NCBI RefSeq assembly: GCF_023091245.1
Contig: NZ_JAHWXN010000001.1
Location: forward strand, 2,790,001-2,854,000
Length of the DNA: 64,000 nucleotides
Source: Microbacterium croceum
GTDB taxonomy: Bacteria > Actinomycetota > Actinomycetes > Actinomycetales > Microbacteriaceae
Direction of reading: 5' to 3'
Part shown: positions 7,831-13,555 of the stretch, in pieces
Layout: every line of letters begins with the position of its first letter
Numbering within the stretch: position 1 is the first letter of the stretch
The notes under the pieces: model-generated
What the model saw: only the letters and a program-made list of their open reading frames with translations
Databases searched by the model: none
Told to the model about the DNA's origin: nothing
Position numbers and translations under genes: made by a program

Positions 7831-9179
7831 GCGCGCCACCCCGATTTCCAGTCCTCTTCCTCCGACAGCGCGATGGCCTCACCGGCGAGCACGACGGATC
7901 CGGCGATCACGACCGCGCGGCGGTCGGACGATGCGGCCCACTCCCGGGCGGCATCTGCTGCCTCGGCCAGCGTGTGGTGCACGGTGGCGCGCCGGCCGGT
8001 CTGCTCGACGAGGTCGGCGATGGCATCCGCTTCGCTCGCCCGGTCGGAGTCGGGAGCCGTGGCGAACACGTGCGCGACGCCGGGCGCAAGCTGCGCGACG
8101 ATGCCCGCCGCGTCCTTGTCGCTCAGGATGCCCAGCACCAGACCCCACTCGTCGAAGTCGAAGCTGTCGTCCAGCGCCTGCGCCAGCGCATGCGCGCCGT
8201 GCGGGTTGTGGGCGGCATCGACGACCACCGTGGGGGCGATGCCGAGCAGCTGCAGACGACCAGGCGAGGTCGTCCCCTGCAGGCCGTCCGAGATGATGTC
8301 TGCCCCGATGCGCTGCGTGGCACCGCCGATGAGGGACTCGACCGCGGCCACCGCGAGTGCCGCGTTGTGGCCCTGGTGCGCGCCGTACAGCGGCAGGTAC
8401 TCCTCGGAGTACTCACCCGCGAGTCCGCGGATCGAGATGAGCTGGCCGCCGACGGCGAGCTTCTGATCCGTGAGGCCGAACTCCTCGCCCTCGAACGCGA
8501 TGGTCGCGTGGCGCTCGGCGGCGACGCGGCGCAGCACCTCTGCGGCCTCTGCGGGCTGCTGAGCAGAGACGACCGCCGCCCCCTCCTTGATGATCCCGGC
8601 CTTGACCTGCGCGATCTCGGTGATCGTGTCGCCCAGGCGATCCGCGTGGTCGATGTCGATCGGCGCGAACACCGCGACGTCGCCATCGGCGGTGTTCGTG
8701 GAGTCCCACTCCCCGCCCATGCCGACTTCGAGCACCAGCACGTCCACGGGCGCGTCCGCGACCGCGACGAAGGCGAGCACGGTCAGCAGCTCGAAGAACG
8801 TCAGCGGTTCTTCGCCGTCGGCCTCCAGCTCGGCGTCGACGATCCCGACGAACGGTTCGATCTCGTCCCAGGCGTCGGCGAACGCCGCATCGGCGATCGG
8901 CTCGCCGTCGATCAGGATGCGCTCGGTGAAGCGCTCCAGGTGCGGGCTCGTGAACAGTCCGGTGCGCAGCTCGTGCGCCCGCAGCAGGCTCTCGATCATG
9001 CGCGCGGTGGAGGTCTTGCCGTTCGTGCCGGTGATGTGCACGACGCGGTAGGTGCGCTGCGGGTCGTCCAGGTACGCCAGGATTCGCGCGGTGCGCTCCT
9101 TGCGCGGCTGCACCCAGCGCTCCCCCGAGCGGCTCAGGAGAGTCTCGTAGACGGCATCCGCCCTGTCCTTGTCGGTCAT
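7827..9179 (-). CDS. folC: Folylpolyglutamate synthase / dihydrofolate synthase
   Basis: 450-aa Mur-ligase-type enzyme that adds glutamate to dihydropteroate and folates using ATP. The P-loop is [11 protein letters not shown] (near residue 50), followed by [12 protein letters not shown], the Mur-family central domain with [14 protein letters not shown], and [11 protein letters not shown] in the C-terminal domain. Length is normal. Its ATG overlaps the ileS stop by ATGA and its stop overlaps DUF4233 the same way, so all four genes behave as one translational unit. It is therefore probably co-regulated with ileS by the T-box. Confidence 0.96.
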
Positions 9180-12100
9180 GCGTCTGCTCCGATCCGGCTG
9201 ACGGCGATCGTGAAGTCCTCGCGGTTGGCGTACGTACCCTTCGGGATCACCGCCGTGAACTCGGCGAAGGGCAGCTCCGCGTCGCCGCGCAGCAGCGAGT
9301 GCTCCAGAGCGAGCGTCTCCCCCGCGACCTCGGCGATCTCGAACGCGGCCGAGACGGCGTCCGCATCCTCATCGCTCGCGAAGCGCAGGTCCAGACGGAT
9401 GCGGTCGCTCACGTCGAAGTCCGCGTTCTTGCGGGTCTCCTGCACGGCGCGGATGACGTCGCGCGCAAGGCCCTCGGCCTCGAGCTCCGGCGTGGTCTGC
9501 GTGTCCAGCAGCACGAAGCCGCCCGTCGGCACGATGGCGAGAGCCTCTCCCTCCGGGCGACCGGTCGTCTCGAGCACCAGCTCGTACTCCGACGGCTCCA
9601 GCGCGATGCCTCCGGCCGTGACCACACCAGCGGTCTCGGACCAGTCCCCGGCCTTCGCCGCCTTGATGACGGTCTGCACGTTCTTGCCCAGACGCGGACC
9701 GGCCGCGCGGGCGTTGACGCTCAGACGGTGGTCGATGCCGTAGGACACCGCTGTGTCGTCGGCGAGCGTTACGAGCTCGACGGACTTCACGTTGAGCTCC
9801 TCGCGGAGGATGTCCTCGAACTGTCCGAGCGAGGCCGCGAGCGGAGAGACGACCGTGAACCGTGCGAGGGGAAGCCGCACGCGCAGCTTCTCCTTCTTGC
9901 GCAGCGCGTTGCCGACGCTCGACAGCTCGCGCACGGCATCCATCGCGTCGCGGATCTCGTCGGCTGCGGGGAACTGCTCGTCATCCGGCCAATCCGTCAG
10001 GTGCACGCTGCGGCCACCGGTGAGGCCCTGCCAGACGCGCTCGCTGATCAGCGGCACCAGCGGCGCGGCGACACGCGTCAGCGTCTCGAGCACCGTGTAG
10101 AGCGTGTCGAACGCCTCCCGGCTCTTCGGATCGTCGGTCACGCCGACCCAGAACCGATCGCGCGAGCGACGGATGTACCAGTTCGTCAGCACCTCGGCGA
10201 AGTCGCGCAGCCGCGCGGCCGCGGTGGTCGAGTCGAGACCTTCGAGGTCGGCGCGCACATCGCGCACCAGATCGCCGAGTCGGGCGAGGATGTAACGGTC
10301 GAGCACGTCGGTCGAGTCCGTGCGCCACTCGGCTTCATACCCGCCGCTGGGCTGGGTCCCTGAGCTTGTCGAAGGATCCGAAGCGTTCGCATACGTCGCG
10401 AAGAAGTACCAGGAGTTCCACAGCGGCAGCAGGAACTCCCGCACACCGGACCGGATCCCTTCCTCGGTCACCGCCAGGTTTCCGCCACGCAGCACGGAGC
10501 TCGACATCAGGAACCAGCGCATCGCGTCGGAGCCGTCTCGGTCGAGCACCTCCGACACATCCGGGTAGTTGCGGAGCGACTTGGACATCTTGTAGCCGTC
10601 GCTGCCGAGCACGATGCCGTGGCAGCTCACGCCCGTGAAGGCGGGGCGGTCGAAGAGCGCGGTCGACAGCACGTGCATGACGTAGAACCAGCCGCGCGTC
10701 TGCCCGATGTACTCGACGATGAAGTCCGCAGGAGCGTGAGAATCGAACCATTCCTGGTTCTCGAACGGATAATGCACCTGCGCGTAGGGCATCGAACCCG
10801 AGTCGAACCACACGTCGAAGACGTCTTCGATGCGGCGCATCGTGCTCTTGCCGGTGGGGTCGTCGGGGTTCGGACGGGTGAGGTCGTCGATGTACGGCCG
10901 GTGCAGGTCGATCTCGCCCTCCGGGTTGCGCGGCAGCGTCCCGAAGTCGCGCTCGAGGTCCTCCAGCGACCCGTAGGCATCGACGCGCGGGTACTCCGGG
11001 TCGTCGCTCTTCCAGATCGGGATCGGCGAGCCCCAGTAGCGGTTGCGGCTGATCGACCAGTCGCGTGCGCCCTCGAGCCATTTGCCGAACTGCCCGTGCT
11101 TGACGTTCTCCGGCACCCAGGTGATCTGCTCGTTGTTCGCGAGCATGTCGTCCTTGATGTCCGTCACACGGATGAACCAGCTCGACACGGCCTTGTAGAT
11201 CAGGGGGTTACGGCAGCGCCAGCAGTGCGGGTACGAGTGCTCGTAGCTCTGCAGACGGACCAGGCGTCCGCTATCGCGGATGAGACGCACGAGCGGAGTG
11301 TTCGCGTCCATCCAGAGCTCGCCGGCGACGTCTGTGACGTTCGGGAGGAACCGCCCGCCGTCGTCGAGCGAGAGGATCGTGGGGATGCCGGCGGCACCGG
11401 CGACGCGCTGGTCATCCTCACCGTACGCCGGTGCCTGGTGCACGATGCCGGTGCCGTCGCTGACCGTGACGTAGTCGTCGACCAGGATGCGCCAGGCGTT
11501 CTCGGTGCCGTAGGTCTCTTCGTCGGCGTAGTAGTCGAACAGACGGTCGTAGGTCACGTCCTGCAGCTCCGCGCCGCGGACCGTCGCATCCACCGCGGCG
11601 AGCGCGTCATCGACGCTCTCGTAGCCGAGATCCTTGGAGTATCCGCCGAGCAGTTCGCGTGCGAGCAGGTAGCGGTGCGCCGAGGCCTCGACCGCGGCAT
11701 CCGTCGTCCCGGCGGCCTGATGCACGTCGGCCGCGCCGTTCGGACCGGCCGGCAGCACCACGTATTCGATCTCCGGACCCACGGCGAGCGCGAGGTTGGT
11801 GGGAAGGGTCCACGGGGTGGTCGTCCAGGCGAGCGCGCGCACTCCGGTGAGGCCGAGGGCCTCGGCCTTGGCGCCGGTGAGCGGGAAGGTCACGGTGACG
11901 GACGGGTCCTGGCGCATCTGGTAGACGTCGTCATCCATGCGCAGCTCGTGCGCGGACAGCGGGGTCTCGTCGCGCCAGCAGTACGGGAGCACACGGTATC
12001 CCTCGTAGGCGAGGCCCTTGTCGTAGAGGGTCTTGAAGGCCCAGAGCACGCTCTCCATGTATCCGAGGTCGAGTGTCTTGTAGCCGCGCTCGAAATCGAC

Positions 12101-12574
12101 CCAGCGCGCCTGACGGGTGACGTAGTCCTGCCACTCACGCGTGTAGGCGAGGACCGAGTCCTTGGCCTTCGCGTTGAAGACGTCGATGCCCATGGCCTCG
12201 ATCTCGCTCTTCTCGGTGATCCCGAGCTGCTTCATCGCCTCGAGCTCGGCCGGGAGCCCGTGGGTGTCCCAGCCGAAGACCCGGTCGACCTTGTGACCGG
12301 TCATGGTCTGGAACCGCGGGAACACGTCCTTGGCGTAGCCGGTGAGCAGGTGACCGTAGTGGGGCAGGCCGTTGGCGAACGGCGGGCCGTCGTAGAACAC
12401 CCACTCGGGCGAGCCCTCGCGCTGCGCGATCGAGGCGCGGAAGGTGTCGTCCTTCTCCCAGAAGGCGAGCACCTCCTCCTCGATCTGCGGGAAGCGGGGG
12501 CTGGGCGCGACGGAGGCAGCGGCGGGGCCGAAGGAAGAGGTCCCTGAGCTGGTCGAAGGGCGGGGGTAGGTCAT
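9176..12574 (-). CDS. ileS: Isoleucyl-tRNA synthetase
   Basis: Charges tRNA-Ile; class I synthetase of 1132 aa, of the long type with C-terminal extension. The HIGH-type motif is HYGH at 72-75 ([13 protein letters not shown]) and the KMSKS loop is [12 protein letters not shown] near 660. The editing domain lies between them, with TTPWTLPTN around 250. Two oddities: residues 5-12 and about 733-739 both encode a PSTSSGT peptide that comes from a 21-bp repeat lying inside the reading frame, the first at the disordered N-terminus and the second in a surface linker after FATYANASD. Expression is predicted to respond to uncharged tRNA-Ile through the T-box leader directly upstream. Confidence 0.98.
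10355..10375 (-). repeat. REP-like 21-mer inside ileS, copy 2
   Basis: GGTCCCTGAGCTTGTCGAAG plus G on the + strand. In the ileS frame it is read as DPSTSSGT. It differs at one base (T/G) from the copy near the start of the gene. Closely similar short sequences are known to me as interspersed repeats of some actinobacterial genomes, from memory and not from a search. Confidence 0.75.
12539..12559 (-). repeat. REP-like 21-mer inside ileS, copy 1
   Basis: GGTCCCTGAGCTGGTCGAAG plus G on the + strand, only 15 bases inside the ileS start. It is read in frame as RPSTSSGT at residues 5-12. It matches the copy at 10355-10375 at 20 of 21 positions and has the same orientation and reading frame. Confidence 0.75.
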
Positions 12575-12579
12575 CGTGT

Positions 12580-12778
12580 CTCGCAGTGGTCGTCGTGGCG
12601 GATGCTCCTGCGAGGACGACCCTCGCGGACCGCGGTACCACCTCGCGTGCCACGCCTGACGACGCGACCACTCTCACTGCGGCTGTGACGGGCCTGCCCC
12701 GCTCGGTTCTACTGGGTCCGTCTCCGGACTGTTCTTCCGAGAGCTCCCCGGTGATGCCGGATCGATGCTCGTCCCTCC
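12580..12778 (-). promoter_or_regulatory. T-box leader controlling ileS (ultrashort stem I, Ile specifier)
   Basis: On the minus strand the leader contains the T-box sequence GAGGTGGTACCGCGGTCCGC (+ coordinates about 12623-12642), which binds the free 3' end of uncharged tRNA. Upstream is the compact specifier region around 12745-12765, with CCGGCATCACCGG presenting an ATC (Ile) codon in a loop, then CTCTCGGAAGAAC. Ultrashort stem I and translational control are established for actinobacterial ileS T-boxes. The pairs TGGTCG/CGACCA and GCAGTG/CACTGC near the start codon could form the alternative sequestering helix. A TACACT -10-like hexamer at 12779-12784 would start the transcript just upstream of the specifier. 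Confidence 0.92.
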
Positions 12779-12795
12779 AGTGTACGCGTGTGTCA

Positions 12796-12867
12796 GGCTT
12801 CGGAGATCGGCCACATTCAGGAACGTTTCGCGGCCGGCGATCCGAGATGCTGCAGAAATCCGAAGTC
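12796..12867. repeat. Palindromic repeat, copy A
   Basis: The right arm TCCGAGATG..GCAGAAATCCGAAGTC (12841-12867) matches the right arm of the copy at 13528-13555 at 25 of 27 positions. A diverged left arm (12796-12822) pairs with it at about 18 of 27 positions across an 18-base spacer. The end of this arm contains the stop codon of the neighbouring pseudogene. Confidence 0.7.
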
Positions 12868-13388
12868 ATGCGCGCGGCACGCGGTGGAGTCCTTGCGCGA
12901 CAGCGTGCATGATCAAGTCGTGCACGACGTGCCACTGATCCATCACCTGCCGATACCCCACGCGGATGACGTGGTAGCCGAGCATCTTCAGCTCGGCGTC
13001 ATGGCGGATGTCTGGAGTCGACGAGCGAATCCGGATCGCGTGGGATCAACGGACGCGCCCAGTGGACACGCACTCCCTGGTCCGTGCGCACCGCGGCTCG
13101 AGGCGCTGCTCCGACATGACAGAGACCGTCGTCTTCGTGCACCCAGAGGCCCAGCCGGCGGGCCTGCGTGACGCAGGTGAGCACCACTCCTCGTCTCGCC
13201 GCGTCGATCAGCATCGGATCTGCCTGCGGAAGAGCGATCCAGCCCTGTCGCACCGCGAACGCCGCCGAACCGGCCACTGCGTGCGCGATGTCGTATCTGC
13301 TGAGTCCTCGCGCACGAAGCGCGGAGGTTCGGGCGACACCGCCCAGCATCATGACCTCCTGGATGAGTCGGGGCGTATGTGTCGACAT
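12866..13388 (-). pseudogene. AbiEi-like / DUF559-type protein gene with internal deletion
   Basis: The N-terminal part reads normally from the ATG at 13388 (STHTPRLIQEVMMLGGVAR, ARRLGLWVHEDDGLCHVG, VHWARPLIPRDPDSLVDS), matching the winged-helix start of AbiEi/DUF559-type proteins common in Microbacteriaceae. It then hits a stop after SRHPP. In the next frame the C-terminus of the same kind of protein continues at once (DIRHDAELKMLGYHVIRVGYRQVM) to a TGA at 12866-12868. The middle, roughly 100-150 codons with most of the Vsr-like nuclease fold, is missing, and the join shifts the frame. Family name and deletion size are inferred. A truncated 129-aa product is possible. Confidence 0.75.
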
Positions 13389-13488
13389 CCATCGACCCTG
13401 CCTTCTCCTCATCCGCCTCCCGCGCCCTCAGGCCGCGCGTGGTGCACCCGCAGCCCCAGCTTCTCTCTGTGTAGGAAAAGTGAGACCC

Positions 13489-13555
13489 GGACTTCTGCCG
13501 CATCTCGGAGGACGTTGGGCGCAGCTGTCCGAGATGTCGCAGAAATCCGAAGTCC
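13489..13555. repeat. Palindromic repeat, copy B
   Basis: Left arm GGACTTCTGCCGCATCTCGGA (13489-13509, key half GCATCTCGGA) and right arm 13528-13555 ending in CAGAAATCCGAAGTCC form a stem; the left arm lacks 7 bases present on the right. The unit would fold into a long hairpin with an 18-base loop. Same orientation as copy A. Together the two copies bracket the AbiEi/DUF559 pseudogene. Confidence 0.8.

Follow-up and report, generated by a model that had tools for sequence, protein, structure and literature searches.

The ileS gene in the 64-kb stretch of DNA analysed here (the window) contains two copies of a repeat that is probably a short, non-autonomous REP-like palindrome, tolerated within genes where it stays in frame, with both ileS copies arriving after the lineage had split from its nearest sampled relatives. 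The repeat is dispersed, its flanks covary as a stem, its sites are empty in close relatives, occupied ileS genes are scattered over the tree, its copies are biased in frame and strand, and the genomes that hold more than one copy have no Y1 transposase.

Two Copies of the Repeat in ileS

The gene and the two copies have the following positions in the window:

9176..12574, minus strand: ileS, isoleucine--tRNA ligase, 1132 amino acids; open reading frame that hosts both repeat copies
10355..10375, minus strand: repeat copy 1, minus-strand sequence CCTTCGACAAGCTCAGGGACC; encodes PSTSSGT, residues 734–740
12539..12559, minus strand: repeat copy 2, minus-strand sequence CCTTCGACCAGCTCAGGGACC; encodes PSTSSGT, residues 6–12

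The top PDB matches of the ileS product were isoleucyl-tRNA synthetases (E 4.7e-211), and the reading frame is intact despite both copies. Five IleRS matches were found in the own genome, and those listed include ileS itself and one at 26% identity. As the earlier note had described, the two copies are nearly identical (20 of 21 bases) and lie on the same strand and in the same frame, copy 2 encoding its peptide directly after MTYPR and copy 1 directly after YANASD. The 20-mer GGTCCCTGAGCTTGTCGAAG matched at 10355–10374 with no mismatches and at 12539–12558 with one; the window held no further match within 3 mismatches, and 100 dinucleotide shuffles of it yielded none. The note had also placed the copies at the N-terminus and in a linker, where extra residues are tolerated. 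Both places vary in length across the genus, and 8c8v, the top PDB match, has gaps in the stretch containing the copy 1 peptide. In IleRS, the copy 1 site would correspond to the transition between the catalytic and anticodon-binding parts.

The ileS leader (window 12600–12800, minus strand) contains AGGTGGTACCGCGG and AGTAGAACCGAGCGGG, which in our estimation resemble T-box leader motifs. Rfam gave no T-box match in the leader at E up to 1, and nothing close to the gathering score over window positions 9000–13500.

Structure of the Repeat

The repeat is a conserved 22-bp block, CCCTTCGACARGCTCAGGGACC. Within it, the bases flanking the core, TTCGACNNGCTCA, pair with each other to form a stem that is short and variable. 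Among 164 listed matches from many phyla, three Microbacterium loci included, pairs 1, 2 and 3 outside CTTCGACARGCTCAG were Watson–Crick in 150, 139 and 87, compared to shuffled means of 67, 55 and 61, with no excess beyond the third pair (fourth pair 54 vs 51 shuffled). In 161 copies from the genus, pairs 1 and 2 outside CTTCGACARGCTCAG were formed in 152 and 134, compared to shuffled means of 115 and 116; the shuffles ignore kinship, yet three or four pair types are found at each cross-phylum position. The stability of the hairpin was ordinary (z −0.4 to −1.2; +0.6 to +0.9 for the ileS copies with their own flanks). The conserved core and the covarying flanks, predicted to form a short stem across phyla, mark the repeat as REP-like.

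The genus consensus (161 copies) ends in GGGACC, which is GGTC on the other strand, and the end has the form GACC(CAG). In the listed cross-phylum matches, the ends within 9 bases of the core were CGAAC in 40/164, TGAC (GTCA on the other strand) in 31/164 and GACC in 8/164. Tandem arrays are frequent in the genus, the dense ones repeating 24-bp units or the GGCTCAGGGACCCAG half, and inverted pairs account for 3 of 117 clusters. Inverted pairs are frequent among the listed loci of other phyla that have at least two cores. Inverted or tandem pairs of the core were seen in sphingomonads, betaproteobacteria, Bacteroidetes, Chloroflexi and others (e.g., L118, L120, L131 and L160).

Dispersal and Copy Number

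The 3.68-Mb own genome (G000) has 41 matches to GGTCCCTGAGCTTGTCGAAG within 2 mismatches and 33 copies of the exact core, CTTCGACNNGCTCAGG, compared to none for either reversed-pattern control. Across 59 genomes of the genus, the own included, the exact core was present in 38, ranging from 0 to 92 copies. The highest numbers were found in G005 (92), G029 (87), G058 (81), G019 (78) and G030 (52), and the core was absent from G002, G004, G009 and others; the reversed-pattern control gave 1 or 2 in five genomes and 0 elsewhere. Copy number was erratic within one clade (4 in G020, 33 in G006, 36 in G024 and 81 in G058).

Among 297 genomes of the order, counts above 4 occurred only within the genus (106 in G166), with 0–4 copies outside the genus and 0–2 outside the family, close to the control. 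A scan of 257 Gb of contigs found the same core in many phyla among the matches listed. A 15-mer has many chance matches in 257 Gb, and lone matches prove little; repeated and paired matches, and covariation, do not arise by chance. There were 64 plasmid records with a core match, the named genera being mostly sphingomonads and rhizobia, with two Microbacterium. In phage records, the matches listed span 18–19 bases at one place each, and we take them as chance. In viral contigs, the 22-mer, with A or G at its variable base, was exact in 14 stretches (L099–L112), of which L102 and L107 contain four each. When the literature was searched by sequence, CTTCGACAAGCTCAGG and GAGCTTGTCGAAG did not occur in the papers searched, and GCTCAGGGACC appeared in 11 papers on human, animal or virus subjects, judged by title.

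The G049 genome has a region of 1.04 Mb without an exact copy (G049:C1:1790526-2825902), opposite dnaA (at 1.2 kb of 4.37 Mb) and hence around the expected terminus. With 36 places, a random gap this large has P 0.002, for a gap that was picked post hoc. A one-mismatch copy in ileS (L059) falls inside it. We considered a replication-strand bias and rejected it, as the listed G049 copies alternate in strand by eye.

The ileS Sites across the Genus

Long ileS matches (73–100% identity) were found in 58 of the 59 genomes, the own included, and were fragmented in four; G055 gave distant matches only. The gene was read in 50 genomes (30 loci and 20 further stretches), and the N-terminal site could not be read by pattern in three rows (L065, L309 and L321), leaving 47. 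A site was counted as occupied at up to 5 mismatches to the 22-base consensus, a level that shuffled linkers never reached and shuffled N-terminal stretches reached in 1 of 1880. By this count, the N-terminal site was occupied in 5 of 47 genomes (G000, G029 at another position, G030, G025 and G048) and the linker in 6 of 50 (G000, G029, G030, G036, G049 and G058). The N-terminal site of G045, which reads PSRSGT and has 6 mismatches, was left uncounted. The 8 species with an occupied ileS had more copies of the repeat than the 42 with an empty one (Mann–Whitney p 0.0015, kinship ignored).

Both sites were empty in G040 and G002, the nearest rows of the ileS tree (support 97 for the group that these two form with the own genome), and the linker site was also empty in G005. 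At the N-terminal site, G002 reads CCC CGT TCC TCC TTC, whereas the own genome reads CCC CGC (21 nt) TCT TCC TTC, a difference consisting of a 21-nt insertion and two adjoining silent third-base differences. This is the only site at which a clean insertion is demonstrated, and no target-site duplication was noticed. When the two sites were left out of the IleRS tree, a quick tree with 15 of 47 inner branches open, the fewest changes required were 5 at the N-terminal site (47 rows) and 6 at the linker (50 rows).

The earlier note had suggested that a spreading short repeat had entered an essential gene without breaking it, leaving a peptide tag. This suggestion has stood up well: the genome holds further copies, the two in-frame copies face empty sites in G040 and G002, and in the nearest sampled relatives the residues are missing, not specified by unrelated codons. 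Mobility is what we infer from this pattern of presence and absence. The suggestion can also be refined, in that no RAYT-type transposase is present, copies of the repeat also occur in intergenic DNA and in further conserved genes, it is also read in the frames LRQAQGP and PFDKLRD, and copies within and downstream of genes are oriented with transcription.

Other Host Genes and the Bias in Frame and Strand

Contexts were scored for every copy in G000 (33) and G049 (39) and for 27 of the 87 in G029, namely those listed first. To these were added single loci from 29 other genomes, among which G029, G049 and G036 appear again with duplicates removed, and an extra G036 stretch. L032 was dropped since it is the same cluster as L033, and three inverted pairs were set aside, leaving 114 clusters. 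Of these, 28 were in frame inside a gene, a call that depends on a purpose-built codon score. From their sequences, we take the hosts to include RlmN, a UbiB-like kinase, RecQ, a cysteinyl-tRNA synthetase-like protein and an HrpA-like helicase; LepA and riboflavin synthase (RibE) were named by homologue search.

For LepA and RibE, the best 120 of 8000 homologues were collected with queries that carry the insert, so the occupied fractions given here are inflated: the LepA loop, readable by peptide pattern in 119 of 120, had the LRQAQGP form in 20, a PSTGSGT-like form in 6, an ERAE-type form in 2 and none in 91, and PSTGSGT-type inserts, many of them tandem, were present in the riboflavin synthase loop before FEVSLI/FEISLI in 82 of the 117 rows that could be read. 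The homologues of LepA and RibE also indicate that the genus is probably Microbacterium. One LepA loop thus carries the repeat in two frames (20/119 and 6/119), and it is 12–13 residues long when occupied, compared to 7 in most empty rows. The RibE loop (L030:1311-2276, L243; homologues P0121-P0240) is hypervariable, and in many of the listed homologues it contains tandem arrays of PSTGSGTQEGSGT-type units whose lengths differ greatly.

The in-frame copies were sense in 26 cases and antisense in 2 (p 3e-6). One of the three antisense frames has a stop, and the excess of sense copies (26/28) still has p 1e-4 when this is allowed for. The 26 sense copies are read as PSTxSGT in 20, LRQAQGP in 5 and PFDKLRD in 1 (p 9e-6), and this frame bias is consistent with selection for a harmless peptide. 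Outside reading frames, copies between co-directional genes were sense in 24 and antisense in 6, those downstream of a gene were sense in 18 and antisense in 2, and those upstream were divided 12 vs 9; a second count with slightly other flanks gave 22:6, 19:3 and 12:11, respectively. When split by genome, all transcribed classes leaned towards sense. Within single genomes, significance was reached by the in-frame class in G000 (9:0) and G049 (12:1), by the downstream class in G029 only (8:0) and by the co-directional class in G000 only (8:1, p 0.04). For copies that give rise to no peptide, the strand bias must stem from selection at the RNA level or from strand-specific insertion.

Search for a Mobilising Enzyme

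The Y1_Tnp domain (PF01797) was absent from 58 of the 59 genus genomes, and all those with two or more copies of the repeat were among these. The sole Y1_Tnp gene is in G041 (G041:C15:20980-21342; L098), which has one copy. Since the positive control was detected in 5 of 14 known genomes, the search itself works. We also considered and rejected a resident RVT_1 protein as the source of copies by reverse transcription: RVT_1 was present in 6 of 59 genomes and did not track copy number, the carriers being G005 (92 copies) and five genomes with 0 copies, with none in G000, G029, G058, G019 and G049. Ten genes neighbouring the dense G029 arrays contained no transposase domain and no common candidate (lipoyl ligase, aldehyde dehydrogenase, formamidopyrimidine-DNA glycosylase, and CysZ-like, SnoaL-like, MoaF, phosphomethylpyrimidine kinase, HIT, ACT and GntR/FCD proteins). 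Since there are 33 copies here and 0 in G002, where the ileS sites are empty, the data argue that the repeat went on spreading recently without a resident Y1 gene.

Origin and Spread of the Repeat

In the explanation that we favor, the repeat would be copied by a hairpin-recognising activity other than RAYT. Copies inside genes would survive where the frame is kept and the peptide, mostly PSTGSGT or PSTSSGT, is tolerated, presumably at a terminus or in a stretch of variable length, and selection against harmful peptides may produce the frame bias. The ileS gene would have gained its two copies after the split from the nearest sampled relatives. Against this explanation, no mobilising enzyme was found, and the net gain at an occupied place can differ from 21 nt, as seen in the LepA loop and in the ileS linker of G049, which has a net gain of +6 residues relative to G052. 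The single ileS copy of G025 also makes recombination of ileS alleles possible. If the tags had been passed between species in this way rather than inserted repeatedly, it would account for the identical N-terminal junction of G000 and G030 and for G025, where the only exact core in the whole genome is the N-terminal ileS copy. However, the occupied genes are scattered on the ileS tree, their positions and units differ (the N-terminal site of G029, which has three related units in ileS; the unit present twice in G036; one sense and one antisense copy in G058), and 31 other copies in the own genome would be left unexplained, which makes such a transfer rather improbable. Were the repeat a canonical REP, spread by a RAYT (Y1 tyrosine transposase) of the same genome, it would likewise be a short dispersed palindrome with a conserved unpaired end, and the few inverted pairs would suit this reading, but with PF01797 missing from 58 of 59 genomes, one copy in the sole carrier and a control that worked, we consider it very unlikely. 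It is just as unlikely that the repeat is a functional DNA site under selection (an uptake sequence, a Chi-like site or a protein-binding site): the core is very uniform in many genomes, but near-complete close relatives such as G002 have 0 copies, copy number is erratic within a clade (4, 33, 36 and 81), tandem arrays occur, and the changes seen in the stems are compensatory. The peptide is of a kind typical for flexible linkers, and yet chance or convergent coding of Ser/Thr/Gly linkers has a negligible probability, given that the same nucleotides are read in three sense frames and also occur in antisense and between genes, and that reversed-pattern counts were 0 in the own genome.

The strand bias bears on a further alternative, namely that strand is set at entry, by insertion into strands exposed by transcription, and not by later selection alone. 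The sense excess downstream (18 vs 2) and between co-directional genes (24 vs 6), where the codon score indicates no in-frame peptide, points in this direction, as do the lack of an upstream bias (12 vs 9) and the persistence of the in-frame bias (26/28, p 1e-4) after allowing for the antisense stop in one of three frames. However, RNA-level selection could yield the same pattern, reverse transcriptases do not track copy number, and a second repeat family, described below, is unbiased in G049 (8 vs 9 downstream). We therefore regard insertion linked to transcription as unlikely. A bolder and still doubtful possibility, to which we would give slightly more weight, is that transposase-less 22-bp palindromes with one core across many phyla are multiplied strand-specifically on transcribed DNA by some activity, of the host or of a mobile element, that has escaped recognition, and so continue to furnish essential proteins with flexible linkers.

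Relationship to Known Systems

As described in the main text of Di Nocera et al. (2013, PMC3733652), CGTC REPs are short palindromes with an unpaired terminal tag and a patchy distribution over several phyla, which lack a dedicated transposase; other enzymes may move them, or they may be on the way to extinction. Some copies lie inside genes, tRNA synthetases included. The tag CGTC (or TGTC or CCTC) stands beside a stem of 8–9 bp that starts with AT and has a loop of 4–5 nt, and head-to-head inverted dimers predominate. That main text names neither Actinobacteria nor Microbacterium, and our literature search found nothing that joins REPIN or RAYT with Actinobacteria. By this description, the present repeat is similar in being a tagged palindrome, patchily distributed over several phyla and found inside genes, tRNA synthetases included, with no associated Y1 transposase in either case (PF01797 in 1/59 genomes here). 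It is set apart by the GGTC end of the genus repeat in place of the CGTC tag, by its many tandem arrays and few inverted pairs (3/117) compared to the inverted dimers of CGTC REPs, and by the many genus copies that are in frame and sense-oriented. As to the stem given for CGTC REPs (PMC3733652), three outer pairs covary in the repeat and none beyond them, an 8-pair stem would by our reading require two inner G.A mismatches, and there is no AT start in the genus. Because the end and the organisation differ, the repeat is CGTC-like rather than a member of the CGTC REPs. The RAYT-borne GTAG REPs, as covered in the same text, are also dispersed short tagged palindromes; unlike these, the repeat has another end sequence, and its own genome has no Y1_Tnp (PMC3733652).

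Rickettsia palindromic elements (RPEs) are, in the passages that treat them, about 150 bp long with a conserved open reading frame (PMC10969869). The likeness lies in palindromes that sit in frame in unrelated genes (PMC10969869, PMC3733652); the repeat is 22 bp and adds about 7 residues per unit, compared to about 150 bp in RPEs (PMC10969869). Here, as in RPEs, the palindrome is in frame in conserved genes with empty orthologues (ileS, and LepA with 91/119 lacking the insert). We file the repeat with REP/RPE-type palindromes that enter proteins. Its interest lies mainly in the missing mover and the strand bias. How REPs without RAYT multiply was left open in the text cited (PMC3733652), and with copy numbers that range from 0 to 92 among species of one genus, sites that are empty in some of them and a Y1 gene missing from the copy-rich genomes searched, multiplication without RAYT becomes testable by gene content. 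The repeat also presents a case of essential proteins growing in frame through short repeats, with a clear preference of frame and strand, and database peptides such as PSTGSGT, LRQAQGP and PFDKLRD can accordingly be repeat insertions rather than conserved motifs.

A Second Repeat Family

A second family, GAGCGAGCGNAGCGAGNCGAAAC, with the consensus context CCGGTCGTTGAGCGAGCGAAGCGAGACGAAACGC, gave per-genome counts of 0 to 113 when up to 2 mismatches were allowed, and its species pattern was different: G008 had 113 matches and none of the first family, whereas G058 had 0, compared to 81 of the first. In G049, there were 82 matches within 2 mismatches, and the exact matches formed 41 clusters in 40 stretches. 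None of these clusters was in frame, and they showed no strand bias (8 vs 9 downstream); the strand bias is therefore not common to the two families tested. By our reading of the sequences, both families appear to have the frame GGTC-NNTGAG-loop-CGAANN in common. The second family (GGTCGTTGAGCGAGCGAAGCGAGACGAAAC; L330–L369) lies mostly beside the 3' ends of genes in G049, where this could be called. The ileS linker of G022 (L043) contains a different repeat, related to the second family, which reads VVERAERDE.
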